Assembly (NCBI RefSeq): GCF_003403295.1
Contig: NZ_QUWV01000065.1
Coordinates: 1-59,792 of the forward strand
DNA: 59,792 nt
Origin: Komagataeibacter melaceti
GTDB lineage: Bacteria > Pseudomonadota > Alphaproteobacteria > Acetobacterales > Acetobacteraceae
Reading direction: 5' to 3'
Both the position numbers and the translations under genes were made by a program. The notes under the pieces are model-generated. The model did no database searches, was not told the origin of the DNA, and saw nothing but the letters and a program-made list of their open reading frames with translations. Below, piece by piece: positions 4,897 through 59,616 of this stretch (the stretch's first letter is position 1; each line of letters starts with the position of its first letter).

Positions 4897-5460
4897 ATGT
4901 TCATTGAAACAGAAGACACACCCAATCCCGCGACCCTGAAATTCCTGCCGGGGCGGGAGATCATGGCCAATGGGGCTACGGCCGATTTCATCAATCCCGA
5001 TTCCGTTGCCGGGCGGTCGCGCTTGGCGGAGCTGGTGTTCGATCTGGATGGTGTGGCGCGCGTCTTTTTTGGCAATGACTTCGTTGCCGTGACCCGGAGC
5101 GACTCGGTCCAGTGGGAGGAACTGCGCCCGCAGGTGCTGTCCGTGCTGGCCGATTACCTGGCCACCGGCCAGCCGGTGGTGGAAAGCGACGCCCAGGTTG
5201 TCGAGGATCTGGTCGCACCGGGGGACGAGGACATCGTGCAGCAGATCAAGGAACTGCTGGATACCCGCGTGCGCCCCGCCGTGGCGGGTGACGGGGGGGA
5301 CATCGTGTTCCGCGGGTATCGTGACGGGATTGTCCGGCTGACCATGCAGGGTGCATGTTCGGGCTGCCCCTCTTCACGCGCAACGCTCAAGCACGGGGTG
5401 GAGAACATGCTGCGCCATTATGTGCCGGAAGTGGTATCGGTGGAGCAGGTGGAGGCCTGA
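4897..5460 (+). CDS. nfuA: NfuA/NFU1-type iron-sulfur carrier protein
   Basis: A 187-residue scaffold or carrier that passes Fe-S clusters to client enzymes in the cytoplasm. Residues about 1-90 form the Nfu N-terminal domain (start MFIETEDTPNPATLKFLPG is characteristic of alphaproteobacterial and mitochondrial NFU1). Residues about 105-185 form the NifU C-terminal domain with the cluster-binding CxxC in GACSGCPSS. It heads a same-strand run nfuA, nitroreductase, tsaB, rimI that is common in alphaproteobacteria. Clients in this window could include SdhB, ThiC and CobG. The symbol is by family; nfu or nifU-like names are also used. Confidence 0.88.
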   Translation: MFIETEDTPNPATLKFLPGREIMANGATADFINPDSVAGRSRLAELVFDLDGVARVFFGNDFVAVTRSDSVQWEELRPQVLSVLADYLATGQPVVESDAQVVEDLVAPGDEDIVQQIKELLDTRVRPAVAGDGGDIVFRGYRDGIVRLTMQGACSGCPSSRATLKHGVENMLRHYVPEVVSVEQVEA

Positions 5461-51415: not shown

Positions 51416-52507
51416 ATGGACAGCGCCACCACCCTTCCCTTCACGCTTTCCCCCAGCACCTCGCCGGTTCCGCCGCAGCGCCGGGCGGAGATTCTGGCCA
51501 ATCCCGGTTTTGGGCGTGTCTTTACCGATAACATGGTCGTTATCCGTTATGAGGAAGGCAAGGGGTGGCATGATGCCCGCGTGCAGCCCTACGCCCCGCT
51601 GTCACTGGACCCGGCGGCGGCGGTGCTGCACTACGCGCAGGAAATTTTCGAGGGGATGAAGGCCTACCGTACGGCAGAGGGGCACATCACCCTGTTCCGC
51701 CCGCAGGCCAATGCGGCGCGCTTCCGCAAATCGGCTGAGCGGCTGGCCATGGCGCAGGTGCCCGAGGATCTTTTTGTCGAGGCGGTGCGCCAGCTTGTGC
51801 GCATTGACGCCGCATGGGTGCCCGGCAACCCCGATGAGAGCCTGTACATCCGCCCCTACATGATCGCCAGCGAGACGTTCCTTGGCGTGAAGCCCGCCGC
51901 GCAGTACCTGTTCATGGTCATTGCTTCCCCCGTGGGGGCCTATTTCGGGGAGGAGGCGGTCAGCGTCTGGGTGTCCGATTTCTGCCGCGCCGCCCCCGGC
52001 GGCACAGGTGAGGCCAAGTGCGGCGGCAATTACGCCGCAAGCCTCATGGCCCAGCAGGAAGCCAAGGGGCATGGCTGCGCGCAGGTCCTGTTCCTTGATG
52101 CGGTGGAGCGCCGCTGGATCGAGGAAATGGGCGGCATGAACGTGTTTTTCGTGTTCGATGACGGCTCCATCGCCACCCCGCCGCTGACCGGCACGATCCT
52201 GCGTGGCATCACGCGCGATTCGCTGCTGACGCTGGCGCGCGGCATGGGCCTGACCGTGCGGGAGGAACGCTACGCCATCGACCAGCTTTATGCCGATGCC
52301 GCGTCGGGCCGCCTGAAGGAAGTGTTCGCCTGTGGCACGGCGGCGGTGGTCTCGCCCATCGGGCGTTTCCGCGGGCATCGGGGCGAGGCGGTCATTGGCA
52401 CGGGCGCGGGCATCGGCCCCGTTACCGAAAAGCTGCGTAACGCCCTGATCGGCATCCAGCGTGGCACCGCGCCCGACCCGCATGGTTGGGTGGAAAGGGT
52501 TCTCTGA
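51416..52507 (+). CDS. ilvE: Branched-chain amino acid aminotransferase
   Basis: A PLP enzyme (363 residues) of fold type IV, class of eukaryote-like BCATs (IlvE type II). Seen are HYAQEIFEGMKAYR, LYIRPYMIASETFLGV, the PLP Lys in GEAKCGGNYAASL, EEMGGMNVFFVF and EVFACGTAAVVSPIG. It transfers amino groups between glutamate and the keto acids of Leu, Ile and Val. It starts after a 141-base gap and is convergent with thiC. Confidence 0.95.
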   Translation: MDSATTLPFTLSPSTSPVPPQRRAEILANPGFGRVFTDNMVVIRYEEGKGWHDARVQPYAPLSLDPAAAVLHYAQEIFEGMKAYRTAEGHITLFRPQANAARFRKSAERLAMAQVPEDLFVEAVRQLVRIDAAWVPGNPDESLYIRPYMIASETFLGVKPAAQYLFMVIASPVGAYFGEEAVSVWVSDFCRAAPGGTGEAKCGGNYAASLMAQQEAKGHGCAQVLFLDAVERRWIEEMGGMNVFFVFDDGSIATPPLTGTILRGITRDSLLTLARGMGLTVREERYAIDQLYADAASGRLKEVFACGTAAVVSPIGRFRGHRGEAVIGTGAGIGPVTEKLRNALIGIQRGTAPDPHGWVERVL

Positions 52508-54773: not shown

Positions 54774-54892
54774 TGATCTTGCTAATGGTGGGTCATGGGG
54801 CGTGAAAAAGAATTCGTGTGCTGATTTGCCACCGGCCGCGTTGTGATAGACTACGGGTGGAGAACATCTTTTTTCGGGGAAAGCAGGACAGC

Positions 54893-56593
54893 ATGACAGG
54901 TAGCGTGATTTCAGACCGGATCGCACAGGGCAGCGGGCGGGTGCCGGCGGATACGGTCATCCGCAACGTCCGCCTGTTCGACCTTGTGACCGGGACGCTC
55001 CTGCCAACCGACATCGCCATATGTGGCGACACCATTGTCGGCACGCTGGACAGTTACGAAGGCGTCAACGTGATCGAGGGGTATGGCCGCATCGCGGTGC
55101 CGGGCTTCATCGACACGCACCTGCATGTCGAATCCTCGCTCATCACGCCGTTCGAATTCGACCGCTGCGTGCTGCCCCATGGCGTGACCACCGCCATCTG
55201 CGACCCGCATGAAATGGCGAATGTCCTTGGCCTGCCCGCGCTGGACTACTTTACGGCGGCGGCGCAGCGCACGGTCATGGACCTGCGCGTCAACCTGGCA
55301 AGCTGCGTGCCGTCCACCGCGCTGGAAACATCGGGTGCCACGCTGGGGGCGAAGGACCTGCTGGCCTACCGCGACCACCCCAAGGTCATTGGCCTGGCCG
55401 AGTTCATGAACATTCCCGGCGTGCTGAACTGTGACCCGGTCTGCATGGAAAAGCTGGAAGCCTTTGCCGGTAGCCATATCGACGGCCATGCCCCGCTGCT
55501 GCGCGGGCGCAAGCTCAATGGCTACCTGTCCGCCGGGATCACCACCGACCACGAGGCCACGGCAGCGGACGAGGCGCTGGAAAAGGTGCGCAAGGGCATG
55601 ATGGTCCTGATCCGTGAAGGATCGGTTTGCAAGGACCTGCGTGCACTGGCGCCGCTGCTTACGCCGGTTACGTCCCCGTTCTTCGCGTTCTGCACCGATG
55701 ACCGCAACCCGCTGGAAATCGCGCATGAAGGGCATCTGGATTACCTGATCCGCCTTGCCATCTCGCTGGGGGTCGAGCCGCTGGCCGCCTATCGCAGCGC
55801 CACGCTCAGCGCCGCGAATGCCTTCGGCCTGCGTGACCGGGGCCTGATCGCGCCGGGACGGCGGGCGGATATCGTCCTGCTTGATGACCTGCGTGAATGT
55901 CGCGTGTCGGATGTGATCAGCGCCGGGCGGCTGGTCAATGACGCGCTGTTTGCTGCGCGCGAGATCATTCCCCCCGTCGGCATCGACAGCATCAACCTGC
56001 CCGCGCCGGTTACGCCGCAGGACATGGCCATTACGGGCAGCGGCACGCAGCGCCCCGTCATCGGGCTGGTGCCGGGCCAGATCATCACCCCGTTCCTGCA
56101 TGCCGACCTGCCGGTGCGTGACGGCGTGGTCCAGCCGGACCCGGCACAGGACATCGCGCGCATCTGCGTGGTGGCGCGCCATGGGCATAACGACAATATC
56201 GGCCGTGGCTTCGTGAAGGGGTTCGGCCTGTCCGGCGGTGCGCTGGCATCCTCCGTCGGGCATGACAGCCATAATATATGTGTGGTTGGCATGGATGACG
56301 CGGACATGGCCACCGCCGTCAACCACCTGGAAAAGACCGGCGGCGGGTTCGTGGTGGTGCGTGATGGCAAGGTGGTGGCCGACATGCCGCTGCCGGTGGC
56401 GGGGCTGATGAGCGATGCCCCGTTCGAGACCGTGCGCGACCAGCTTGAGGTGCTGCGCGCCGCCGCCCGCGCGCTGGGCTGCACGCTGGATGAACCGTTC
56501 CTGCAGCTTGCCTTCCTGCCGCTGCCGGTTATCCCGCACCTCAAGATCACGGATTTCGGCATGGTGGATGTCAACCGGATGGAACTGGTCTGA
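54893..56593 (+). CDS. ade: Adenine deaminase
   Basis: A metal-dependent amidohydrolase of 566 residues converting adenine to hypoxanthine. The metal site [16 protein letters not shown] is present, as are [27 protein letters not shown], and [19 protein letters not shown]. The C-terminal adenine-deaminase-specific part has [20 protein letters not shown] and [17 protein letters not shown] lies before ATG 54893. It is divergent from thiC. Confidence 0.95.
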
Positions 56594-56613: not shown

Positions 56614-57477
56614 ATGACCACAGCCGACGCCCCCGCGCGTGAGGCCATGGCCACGCTGCGCGCCTATCGGGCGGACTGGGTGCATTTCACGCGCTGGTGC
56701 GCCGATCAGGCGGTCGCCCCCATCCCCGCCGGACCGGATGTAGTGGCGACCTATCTGCGCAGCCTGACGGAATTCGCCCCCGCCACCATCCGCCGCCGCC
56801 TTGCCGCCATTGGCAAGATGCACCGCTTCAACGATGTGCCATGGAATGTGCGGGACACGCGCATCCGCACGGCACTCGCCGCCATGGTGGAACAGGCCCG
56901 CAGCCCCGCGCCCCCGCCCGGCGTGGTCACGCCCGACATGCTGCGCGCCATGGTCGCGCGGTGTGAGGACGGGGCCCGTGGCCTGCGTGACCGCTGCCTG
57001 CTGCTGTTCGGCTTTGCCGGTGCGCTGCGCCGTTCGGAACTGGTGGCCCTGCAGGTTGAGGATGTGCATGTCGAATCGGCGGCCGTGGAGCTGGACGTGC
57101 GTGACAGCAGTGGCGTCCAGCGCGTCATCCTGCCCCTGCCGCAGGAACGGGCGCTGTGCCCGGCGGCCGCGTTTGCCGCCTGGCAGCAGGTGGCGCACCG
57201 GCTGACGGGGCCGCTGTTCCGTGGCATTTCGCGCGGTGAGCGCGTGGGCGGTCGTGCGCTCACCCCCTATGCCGTGACCCGTATCCTCCAGCGTCGCGCG
57301 CTTATGGCCGAAGTGCCACCGGACAGCGCGGCGCGTCTCAGCGCCCATGCCCTGCGTTCGGGCTATATAATGGATGCATTGCGGCGCGGGGTGGATATGG
57401 ATGAGCTGTGCCGCCACACCCGTTACCGTGACCCACGCGCCCTGCGCCCCTATGAACGCCAGCTTGCCGATGAGTGA
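56614..57477 (+). CDS. Tyrosine recombinase (phage-integrase family)
   Basis: A 287-residue site-specific recombinase. The N-terminal SAM-like DNA-binding part (about 10-110) contains RAYRADWVHFTRWCADQAV. Catalytic residues: Arg in FAGALRRSELVALQ (about 133), HxxR in SAHALRSGY (about 245), a His in LCRHTRYRD (about 268), and the nucleophile Tyr in ALRPYERQ (about 280). It starts 20 bases after ade and its stop overlaps the next gene by 8 bases. No att-like repeats or other phage genes are seen, so a mobile-element role is not shown; a Xer-like or regulatory role is possible. Confidence 0.9.
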   Translation: MTTADAPAREAMATLRAYRADWVHFTRWCADQAVAPIPAGPDVVATYLRSLTEFAPATIRRRLAAIGKMHRFNDVPWNVRDTRIRTALAAMVEQARSPAPPPGVVTPDMLRAMVARCEDGARGLRDRCLLLFGFAGALRRSELVALQVEDVHVESAAVELDVRDSSGVQRVILPLPQERALCPAAAFAAWQQVAHRLTGPLFRGISRGERVGGRALTPYAVTRILQRRALMAEVPPDSAARLSAHALRSGYIMDALRRGVDMDELCRHTRYRDPRALRPYERQLADE

Positions 57478-58174
57478 GAACCTGCGCCTTCCCTGGGCCG
57501 ACTTGTTTCCTACCCCCGTGGGGGAGGAGGACGCGCCTGCACCCCCCACCCGCAGCGCGCCGGGGCGGCGGGGGCGGCGGCCGCTTTCCGCTTGGCCCAG
57601 CCCGTCCGAACCCCCGCCATGGCAGTCATGGCGGCTGCTCGTTTACGGACCGGATGCGGCGATGGATGGTTTCGTAGTACAGGCAGCGGGACCGGGGTTG
57701 ATCCCCTGGCCGTTCGATGCCGAGCGGGTGGAGGAAGATGTCTTTGCCCTCGCCATCGGTCCCCACGGTCCCGCGCGCGGGCGGCGCGGCCTGTCGGTGG
57801 AAGGCTGCCGCATCCTTGCCCGCCAGTTCCGTGCGGCGGCGGAAGTGCGCCATGCCCGCCTGACCATGCGGGGCACCGATTCCTGCCCGCTCGATTTTCA
57901 CCGTCTGGTGCCCGTGCCCGAGCGGATCATCGCGCTTGGCGCCACGCATCCCGATGCGCGGGCCTGGCTGCGGGCGAACTGGGGGCTGGTCGAATCCCCC
58001 GTTCAGGTCCGTATCCTGCCGGGCCTGAAGGCCGGTCGCCGCCTGCCACGGGGGCACAGGGCCATCGTTTACGGCTTTTTCACCCGCAATGGCGCACCTG
58101 ATCCCGTGATCCGCCGGCTGGAGGAACATTACCCCACGCTGGTTTTCCGCCTGACCGAACGCTCTTTGGCATGA
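57470..58174 (+). CDS. Unrecognised protein between recombinase and ScpA-like genes
   Basis: A 234-residue protein that I cannot assign. Residues 1-50 are Pro/Arg-rich and probably disordered. From about 53 (WRLLVYGPDAAMDGFVVQA) it looks globular with alternating strands and helices, including FALAIGPHGPARGRRGLSVEG and RRLPRGHRAIVYGFF; conserved-looking Trp, Arg and His are scattered. No membrane segment, signal peptide or Cys cluster is seen. Its start overlaps the recombinase stop by 8 bases, and its stop overlaps the scpA-like gene by 4 bases, so it is co-translated with both. Confidence 0.75.
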   Translation: MSENLRLPWADLFPTPVGEEDAPAPPTRSAPGRRGRRPLSAWPSPSEPPPWQSWRLLVYGPDAAMDGFVVQAAGPGLIPWPFDAERVEEDVFALAIGPHGPARGRRGLSVEGCRILARQFRAAAEVRHARLTMRGTDSCPLDFHRLVPVPERIIALGATHPDARAWLRANWGLVESPVQVRILPGLKAGRRLPRGHRAIVYGFFTRNGAPDPVIRRLEEHYPTLVFRLTERSLA

Positions 58175-58998
58175 CCGGGCAACTCGCGCTTTTCGATGGC
58201 GTTCTGCCGGATGGTGAACCGGTCATCGTGCTTGATGCCTATCAGGGCGGGCTGTCGCACCTGCTGCAACTGGCGCATGGACACCAGATTGACCTGGCGC
58301 GGCTGGATATTGTTGCGCTGATCGAACAGCTTGCACAGGCCGCGCGGGAGCGGGCGTCCCTCCCGCTTGGCCTGAAGGCGCAGTGGGCGGTCATGGCGTC
58401 CGGCCTGCTGCTGCTGCGTTCGCGCCTGCTGCTGCCCGTGGATGATCCGCGCCAGCAGCATGCGGCACAGGAAGCGGCGGACCTGCGCACACGTCTGCTG
58501 GCGGCGGAAAGTGCGTCGCGCCTGGCAGGGTGGCTTGCCGCGCGTGAGCAGCTCGGGCGCGATGTGTATGCCTTTGGTGGTGCGGCGACGGTCGATGATG
58601 ATGAAGCCGCGCAGTGGGAAGTGGACCGCATCGAATTCCTGTGGGGCTGTCTGGCGGTCTTTGATGGCAACTGGGGCATCATGCCGGTGGAGGCGCCGTT
58701 CTACGCGCCCGTGCAACTGGACCTGTTCTCGGTCGAGGATGCCCGCCAGCGTGTCCGCTCCTGTCTGGTGCGTGAGCGCGGGCGGGTGCCGCTGGTGCGT
58801 ATGCTGCCCGACAGCGTGCGTGGGCGGGGCGATGGCCACCTGTCGTCAGGGCAGCGGCGTTCGGCATGGAGCAGTACGTTCGTGGCCTGTCTGGAAATGG
58901 TGAAGCAGGGCGAGGCCCGTGCCTACCAGAATGCGCCCGAAAGCCTGCCGGAGTTCAGCGGCGTGCCCGATGGTACCGTGGTGGACGGGACCGACTGA
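58171..58998 (+). CDS. ScpA-like segregation and condensation (kleisin) protein
   Basis: A 275-residue protein with the overall layout of ScpA, the kleisin of bacterial SMC condensin. The N-terminal part has LDAYQGGLSHLLQLAHGHQI, then LDIVALIEQLAQAA, and an ASGLLLLRSRLLLPVDDPR helix like the ScpA N-domain. The middle is a charged helical linker. The C-terminal winged-helix region has LFSVEDARQRVR, then AWSSTFVACLEMVKQGEARAYQ. Length fits. No scpB or smc is in the window. It may be a second, diverged ScpA; the main ScpA may lie elsewhere. Confidence 0.78.
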   Translation: MTGQLALFDGVLPDGEPVIVLDAYQGGLSHLLQLAHGHQIDLARLDIVALIEQLAQAARERASLPLGLKAQWAVMASGLLLLRSRLLLPVDDPRQQHAAQEAADLRTRLLAAESASRLAGWLAAREQLGRDVYAFGGAATVDDDEAAQWEVDRIEFLWGCLAVFDGNWGIMPVEAPFYAPVQLDLFSVEDARQRVRSCLVRERGRVPLVRMLPDSVRGRGDGHLSSGQRRSAWSSTFVACLEMVKQGEARAYQNAPESLPEFSGVPDGTVVDGTD

Positions 58999-59616
58999 AA
59001 ACAGGGGTGGCAGGGGCCGTGGATTCCCCCCGATTGCATTCCCGCACAGCCATTTCATATCTGTATGGCAACATAATTATACACTTGGGATATGGTGGGA
59101 AACGGTCTCGGATTTTTTTACCTGTTTTTTTTAACACTTTGCTTGACTAGGATTTTTTTTCGATCAAGCTGGACGAAACTTTTTTTAGTGACCTGCCGGA
59201 CAGTAGGAAAAAACAGGTGTTCCGCAGGCTGTTTTCATCTCGGTCGCATGATCCGCGCGGCTGGCTGTTCACTTCAGTCGTTTCGCACAAAATCGGGGTT
59301 GATTTCGAGGTGTTAATAATGTTTATGGATAAAACGTGATGAATGAGGGGCTTGGTCTGTCATGGCGGTGTCAATTCGGTGCATACGCACCAGAATATGC
59401 ACGGCCGGAGAGTACTGCTGTCGTGTTTTCCTGTTCCGCCAGGGGAAGCGATGGTCGTGCCGTGGCACCAGGCCGGGGAGAAAAAGGCGGATCGCAACAG
59501 TCGTTTCGTAGCAACTGGTCATACTCCCAAAGTAAACTTTAGTGAAATCAGAACATCCAGAATAATTTTGTAATAATCCTTCCTAAAAACTATGCCGTTC
59601 TGAGTGAGGTATGGGT
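58999..59616. other. AT-rich gene-free leader before tonB
   Basis: These 618 bases hold no credible gene on either strand. The region is A/T-rich compared with the rest. Four T-tracts of 7-8 bases occur at 59113, 59125, 59153 and 59180, and a 7-bp AAAACAG/CTGTTTT stem lies near 59210-59236. A GAGG ribosome-binding site lies at 59606-59609. I could not place a promoter or a Fur box with confidence. Confidence 0.5.

Follow-up and report, generated by a model that had tools for sequence, protein, structure and literature searches.

An overlapping recombinase-kleisin trio

The window analysed here is the whole of contig C219 (positions 1-59792; 59,792 nucleotides, nt) of the Komagataeibacter melaceti assembly (G000; 3.49 Mb in 248 contigs). 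At 56614-58998 on the + strand it carries three overlapping genes, which encode a tyrosine recombinase (P0001; 56614-57477, 287 amino acids, aa), a middle protein with a predicted YubB/Api92-like fold (P0002; 57470-58174, 234 aa), and an ScpA-like kleisin paralogue (P0003; 58171-58998, 275 aa). The recombinase and middle genes share 8 nt (57470-57477, +), and the middle and ScpA-like genes share 4 nt (ATGA; 58171-58174, +), as the original prediction from this DNA had reported. Its description of the trio as translationally fused applies elsewhere: the genes in the window merely overlap, but on Komagataeibacter plasmids the recombinase and middle protein form a single open reading frame (ORF).

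Assignment of P0001 to the tyrosine recombinases follows from a Phage_integrase match above the Pfam cut-off (7.7e-8) and from the presence of all five catalytic residues (R, H, R, H, Y). Phage-type integrase families are also among its matches. The XerD and XerC equivalog models gave 60.2 bits (cut-off 329.6) and 55.9 bits (cut-off 335.15), respectively. Since even the best XerD-model match of this genome (289.5 bits) falls short, the XerD cut-off is strict for this organism; two matches elsewhere in the genome are nevertheless far stronger than that of P0001.

P0003 resembles ScpA in both sequence and fold over the N-terminal, ScpB-binding and C-terminal winged-helix parts, although its matches to Pfam SMC_ScpA (8.4e-4; 19.8 bits against a cut-off of 24.6) and to the NCBIfam ScpA model (4.2e-9) both lie under the model cut-offs. 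In a phylogenetic tree, 17 canonical ScpA proteins, every one of them encoded beside scpB, grouped in a clade of their own (support 1.0) that excludes the 67 ScpA-like proteins of trio loci. Judged from its sequence, P0003 is thus a kleisin paralogue distinct from canonical ScpA. The protein also matches phrog_30628, a phage protein family of unknown function (2.5e-7), indicating that some phages encode ScpA-like proteins.

No Pfam family matched the middle protein at E<=1, and DUF1281 matched none of its 79 family members at the same threshold in a single-sequence Pfam scan. Structural comparison suggests a resemblance to YubB/Api92, with a ferredoxin-like fold: the best solved match among those listed by a second structure aligner was 2ijr, and YubB names were among the top viral models in BFVD. 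Foldseek returned no PDB match at E<=0.001 for either model, so the Api92 match comes from the second aligner and BFVD. A YubB/Api92-type protein is described as plasmid-borne, its function being given as unidentified in the part of the report that deals with it (PMC10425158).

The trio is distinct from the canonical scpAB of the host

The original prediction noted that the kleisin gene stands without SMC or ScpB. This holds for the neighbourhood, but SMC is encoded elsewhere in the genome, and three plasmids have an ScpB gene ahead of the recombinase (discussed later). In the K. melaceti assembly itself we found no ScpB match and only weak ScpA matches. A sister genome carries canonical scpA-scpB between argS and tat/serS-like frames (argS and serS being named from sequence), and this region matches the K. 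melaceti assembly solely in its flanks, which end at base 1 of contig C228 and at base 80347 of the 80,352 bases of contig C128. Because the flank matches stop at two contig ends, the canonical scpAB of this strain lies in a gap of the assembly, and the ScpA-like gene is not the canonical scpA, as the original prediction required. The assembly is rated 100% complete despite this gap. We considered whether the trio substitutes for a missing ScpAB and rejected the idea: ScpB is present in 183 of 200 Acetobacteraceae genomes, three of the same genus among them, and the host locus lies in the gap.

Distribution and co-inheritance

The middle gene, which we used to follow the unit, was found in 45 of the 200 Acetobacteraceae genomes, representing 24 of 102 genera; a single genome has at most six matches, and some matches are fragments. 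Beyond the family it was rare: three genomes matched among 385 of the class, and three among 398 of the phylum, our own genome being counted in both; the others comprised one strong match (G535, 4.7e-34) and three weak ones (1.9e-4, 1.8e-6 and 3.7e-4). Among 72,556 plasmid records 49 carry the gene, all from Acetobacteraceae, and with the middle protein as sole query none of 50,697 phage records matched.

Of 99 pattern stretches among the genome contigs searched with the middle protein, 97 proved to be relatives, and the best 80 were kept, yielding 79 named loci. A recombinase lies upstream in 71 of these, is cut by a contig end in 3 and is absent in 5; an ScpA-like gene follows in 65, is cut in 1 and is absent from that position in 13, two of which have an ScpA-like gene elsewhere in the locus. 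The three-gene order is therefore conserved well beyond close relatives, as the original prediction required. Eight loci (L069, L085, L098, L100, L101, L105, L126 and L203) consist of recombinase and middle gene with no ScpA gene downstream in the available DNA, L203 having repA there instead. A few loci come from metagenome-assembled genomes (MAGs) that bear the labels Rhodocyclaceae, Nevskia or Caulobacteraceae; these may reflect binning errors. Two MAG loci have ScpB matches: in L063 the recombinase-middle pair is oriented towards scpA and scpB, which lie on the opposite strand, and in L120 scpB stands before the pair.

The three proteins have been inherited together. Across 57 loci, tree distances were correlated most tightly between middle protein and ScpA (r=0.94), followed by recombinase and middle protein (0.74) and recombinase and ScpA (0.68), against a permutation maximum of 0.27.

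The chromosomal copy within the genus

In the window the trio begins 20 nt after the adenine deaminase gene ade (54818-56593, +). This gene is present in 18 of 19 same-genus genomes, and the order ade-recombinase-middle-ScpA holds in all 18 of these, the window included. Both overlaps, of 8 and 4 nt, recur at 17 of 17 sister loci when the start codons nearest to these positions are taken. The chromosomal recombinases retain R, H, R and Y in 18 of 18 cases; the second H is present in 11 and replaced by R in 7. In four sister assemblies the contig with the trio measures 2.9 to 3.5 Mb, and two of these contigs also carry ScpB.

Median pairwise ratios of nonsynonymous to synonymous substitution (dN/dS; Nei-Gojobori, 153 pairs) were 0.22 for the recombinase, 0.17 for the middle gene and 0.23 for the ScpA-like gene, compared with 0.08 for ade, and the corresponding mean protein identities were 0.79, 0.80, 0.79 and 0.94. 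The trio is under purifying selection in the genus, while evolving faster than its neighbour. Its constant place, overlaps, catalytic residues and dN/dS values together indicate that the chromosomal copy has been inherited vertically and under constraint.

Between the trio and the next gene lies strongly conserved non-coding DNA (59108-59610), with blocks identical across 18 genomes. We looked there for a dif-like site and recognised none; the palindromes it contains vary among the 18 genomes.

Dif-like core sites in the upstream DNA

Inverted repeats are strongly enriched in the 900 bp upstream of the recombinase genes. Searching with 12-bp arms, at most one mismatch and a spacer of 5-9 bp, we obtained 52 matches where 2.3 were expected, a figure that counts overlapping registers apart and includes a few unrelated sequences. 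Most of these repeats share the inner half-sites CGATAA/TTATCG. When candidate sites were scored for this core together with outer palindromy of at least 16/20 and a centre of 6 or 7 bp, a core site lay within 1.5 kb upstream in 44 of the 72 loci that have recombinase, middle gene and sufficient upstream sequence, whether or not ScpA is present, and in 0 of 360 shuffles. These 44 loci fit the pattern of dif-like plasmid resolution sites (a palindromic core with arms of about 11-13 bp and a centre of 6-8 bp near the recombinase gene); one of them, L082, has a second sequence type. A dif-like site nearby, for which the original prediction had proposed to look, is accordingly found at most plasmid-type copies but was not recognised beside the copy in the window.

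The site is one-sided: the 64 loci with sufficient sequence on either side include 36 with an upstream site and none with a downstream one, so there is no flanking pair such as an integrating cassette would have. Its distance from the recombinase match falls into three ranges (110-220, 265-390 and 860-1040 bp), with one case at 1473 bp. On four Roseomonas plasmids that we examined (L009, L209, L234 and L235) toxin-antitoxin genes stand between site and recombinase. Centres are 6 bp long in Acetobacter, Asaia, Komagataeibacter and Gluconacetobacter loci and 7 bp long in Roseomonas and Belnapia, and 41 of 47 are distinct within their length class. Within one genome, copies may have the same arms but different centres (L073/L088 and, nearly so, L072/L103); conversely, plasmids 6 and 7 of Roseomonas mucosa TT14 have the same centre and different arms, and the entire site is common to plasmids 2 and 4.

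Scanning the whole window gave just two matches, one at 51519 (score 16, 8-bp centre) and one at 5144 (score 15, 5-bp centre). The shorter motif GATAA-N6-TTATC occurs at 23 places in six same-genus genomes, and we could link none of the 18 inspected to the chromosomal trio. The best palindromes were on contigs C93, C174 and C116 of K. melaceti and C2 of G060, those on C93 and C174 being similar to the core site; partly palindromic sequence (14/20) was seen at two places, on large contigs belonging to G135 and G593. The K. melaceti genome also has two lone recombinases, on C42 (L192) and C116 (L193), that are 51% and 48% identical to P0001 and have no middle gene that we could find. Some 200 bp upstream of the C116 gene there is a core site, and around the C42 gene none occurred within the 10 kb scanned.

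Plasmid-borne units

We examined the surroundings of the middle gene at 18 plasmid loci (L004, L005, L006, L008, L009, L200-L204, L207-L209, L214 and L233-L236). Fourteen have recombinase, middle and ScpA-like genes in order on one strand, including two in which recombinase and middle protein are fused (L008 and L204) and one with a dead recombinase (L004). In L233 and L201 the recombinase frames are on the opposite strand, and L201, which lies beside an insertion sequence, also lacks ScpA; L236 is cut at the start of its record, and L203 has the middle gene followed by repA. Neighbours on some of these plasmids include RepA, VapBC, ParDE, H-NS and HU.

The three plasmids with an ScpB gene before the recombinase belong to Gluconobacter oxydans H24, G. 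sphaericus and Acetobacter aceti. The H24 protein, the one scanned, matches Pfam PF04079 at 2.3e-36; the A. aceti plasmid has two insertion-sequence genes between ScpB and recombinase, and two of the three plasmids have repA downstream. R. mucosa TT14 carries the middle gene on plasmids 2 to 7. Comparing one middle protein per plasmid, we found 54-71% identity apart from one identical pair; a second match on plasmid 2 was outside this comparison.

Used as a query, plasmid ScpB matched 741 of the 72,556 plasmid records, a figure that includes canonical scpAB of large replicons. One each of the canonical-looking Azospirillum and Sphingomonas plasmid matches (eight and one, respectively) was examined, and both have scpA followed by scpB. 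Pseudomonas aeruginosa pPALO11 (L212) has a canonical-looking scpA-scpB with gap and edd, which looks chromosomal and is either carried by the plasmid or misassigned to it. On Mesorhizobium pMESCI01 (L210), Pseudosulfitobacter pSMR1-1 (L211) and Methylocystis pSS37A-Re-4 (L213), a DUF1403 gene is directly followed by ScpB, in L210 with a divergent integrase adjoining and repBC near; this arrangement is possibly a parallel plasmid unit. A three-sequence alignment detected no shared ancestry of DUF1403 with the kleisin or the middle protein, and the open-access literature searched (subscription papers and preprints lay outside it) yielded no description of DUF1403.

Inactive recombinases and divergent companions

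In 14 of the 79 named loci the in-operon recombinase has lost most or all of its catalytic residues. The same is true on pKOB2, on a Lichenicola plasmid and on contig C143 of K. melaceti, and on Komagataeibacter plasmids the dead recombinase and the middle protein are one 445-aa ORF. Dead copies occur in at least two places in the ScpA tree; the recombinase tree joins them, with support of 0.03. A divergent recombinase lies upstream of 9 of the 14 dead loci and 6 of 52 others (p=1.6e-4), in a comparison that treats related loci as independent, passes over 19 of 85 loci (too little upstream DNA or no recombinase), includes broken frames and altered HxxR motifs among the others, and counts divergent frames that are not all intact.

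A second type of inverted repeat, TTCCGTCC...GGACGGAA, was seen at L073:3807, L088:2086, L102:4276 and L112:1061, and in L082. In the first four of these loci it lies 10-200 bp upstream of the divergent recombinase match, suggesting that the divergent recombinase may own a site.

Proposed function of the trio and alternative explanations

We consider it about an even chance that the trio is a plasmid-derived replicon-maintenance module, which would resolve multimers at the core site and engage the host SMC through a kleisin of its own. The tyrosine recombinase or, where that is dead, an intact divergent neighbour would act at the upstream site, so that plasmid multimers are resolved by recombination between directly repeated copies of it. 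The kleisin would bind host SMC together with host or plasmid ScpB, and the YubB/Api92-like protein may tie the kleisin to the recombinase-site complex; SMC loaded at the site could then loop or compact the plasmid, favouring both intramolecular resolution and the separation of sisters. The window holds a chromosomal copy, fixed in the genus with all three proteins kept. Gene order, the one-sided site and the neighbouring genes are more readily explained by a maintenance module than by integration or defence; the kleisin, and the versions with ScpB, are what distinguish this module. Of the functions put forward by the original prediction, dimer resolution or replicon maintenance with SMC remains the best reading, given the dif-like site at most plasmid-type copies; the conservation of the module and the distinction of its ScpA-like protein from canonical ScpA have likewise stood, whereas a general absence of ScpB has not, nor has a role in defence, the trio having no PADLOC match at E<=1.

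Several observations weigh against this interpretation. At our threshold 28 of the 72 loci lack a site, and none was recognised beside the window copy or any of its 17 sisters. ScpA-like genes are absent downstream in the 13 loci mentioned above, and since L069, L085, L098, L100 and L105 have sites without ScpA, the kleisin is not always needed. The module is also not on every plasmid, TT14 plasmids 1 (396 kb) and 8 (17 kb) having no middle-gene match, and TT14 plasmids 2 and 4, with the same site and an identical middle protein, could fuse.

The persistence of dead recombinases in 14 named loci, their fusion to the middle protein on Komagataeibacter plasmids, and a co-evolution of middle protein and ScpA that is tighter than that of either with the recombinase would all suit an SMC-loading or partition module that has no need of recombination, the recombinase fold serving as a site-specific DNA platform in place of ParB/parS. 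We regard this as unlikely, although the least so of the alternatives, because most copies keep their catalytic residues (R, H, R and Y in every chromosomal one), dead copies are often accompanied by an intact recombinase, and the site is shaped as a recombination core. It is less probable still that the recombinase moves the three genes as an integrative or transposable cassette: the patchy spread, the several copies per genome, the plasmid location and the phage-type integrase matches might be so explained, but the chromosomal place is constant in 18 of 18 genomes, the downstream side was free of sites in all 64 loci, and the middle gene, the only one searched, is absent from the phage records. 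We give a similarly low probability to a role of the window's copy unrelated to plasmids, in terminus organisation or regulation of the ade region. Such a role would accord with its fixation in the genus, its position 20 nt after ade and the lack of a nearby site, but its proteins, their order and their domain make-up are those of the plasmid units. Least probable of all, and in our view very improbable, is that the kleisin is a decoy that blocks a Wadjet-like, SMC-type elimination of plasmids by the host, or a modulator of host SMC. A decoy would look like this kleisin, a paralogue of a host SMC subunit that is carried on plasmids and mostly lacks SMC or ScpB of its own; however, the chromosomal copy is fixed and constrained, some units have added ScpB, the linkage to recombinase and site is left without a role, and, to our knowledge, Wadjet kleisins are not ScpA-like.

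A more far-reaching and more doubtful proposal is that Acetobacteraceae plasmids use a kleisin of their own, sometimes with ScpB, to commandeer host SMC at a plasmid-specific recombination site, loop extrusion acting as both topological filter and partition force in multimer resolution, and that the chromosome of one genus has domesticated the module. Found in acetic-acid bacteria and related organisms, frequently on plasmids of large size, a recombinase-kleisin unit that usually stands next to a matching site points to a little-known means by which plasmids could stay monomeric and be passed on. It bears on two open questions, namely how large low-copy plasmids use host SMC and how plasmid recombinases favour intramolecular partners, and a compact operon with recombinase, core site and kleisin paralogue makes both directly testable in acetic-acid bacteria, which are harmless. 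It would also explain plasmid genes whose sole annotation is "ScpA family protein", "transposase" or "hypothetical", and it supplies a genomic context for a YubB/Api92-type protein.

Comparison with known systems

We found no description of the unit in the open-access literature searched. With YubB/Api92 (DUF1281) the middle proteins share the predicted ferredoxin-like fold, 2ijr as best solved match, and the plasmid location given in the relevant part of the report cited (PMC10425158); they differ in that none of the 79 members gave a DUF1281 match at E<=1 in the single-sequence scan.

Site-specific resolution of plasmids is itself well known, and the coupling to a kleisin is, as far as we know, new. 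The dif site has ATAA/TTAT-type inner half-sites and a 6-bp centre, and cer, psi and pdif are plasmid Xer sites. The trio has in common with these systems an XerC/D-like recombinase, a palindromic core with such half-sites and a 6-bp centre, and a single site on one side of the operon. It departs from them in that a dedicated recombinase stands beside its own site, the centres of Roseomonas and Belnapia measure 7 bp, the operon also encodes a kleisin and a YubB-like protein, and P0001 lies far under the XerC and XerD cut-offs. ResD/rfsF and Cre/loxP also pair a recombinase with an adjoining core site on low-copy replicons, but, unlike the trio, neither includes an SMC subunit that we know of. 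Compared with canonical ScpA-ScpB, the kleisin retains similarity in the N-terminal, ScpB-binding and C-terminal parts, and some plasmid units include a true ScpB; it nevertheless belongs to a separate clade (support 1.0) and is an extra copy, sometimes one of several in a genome, that is linked to a recombinase.

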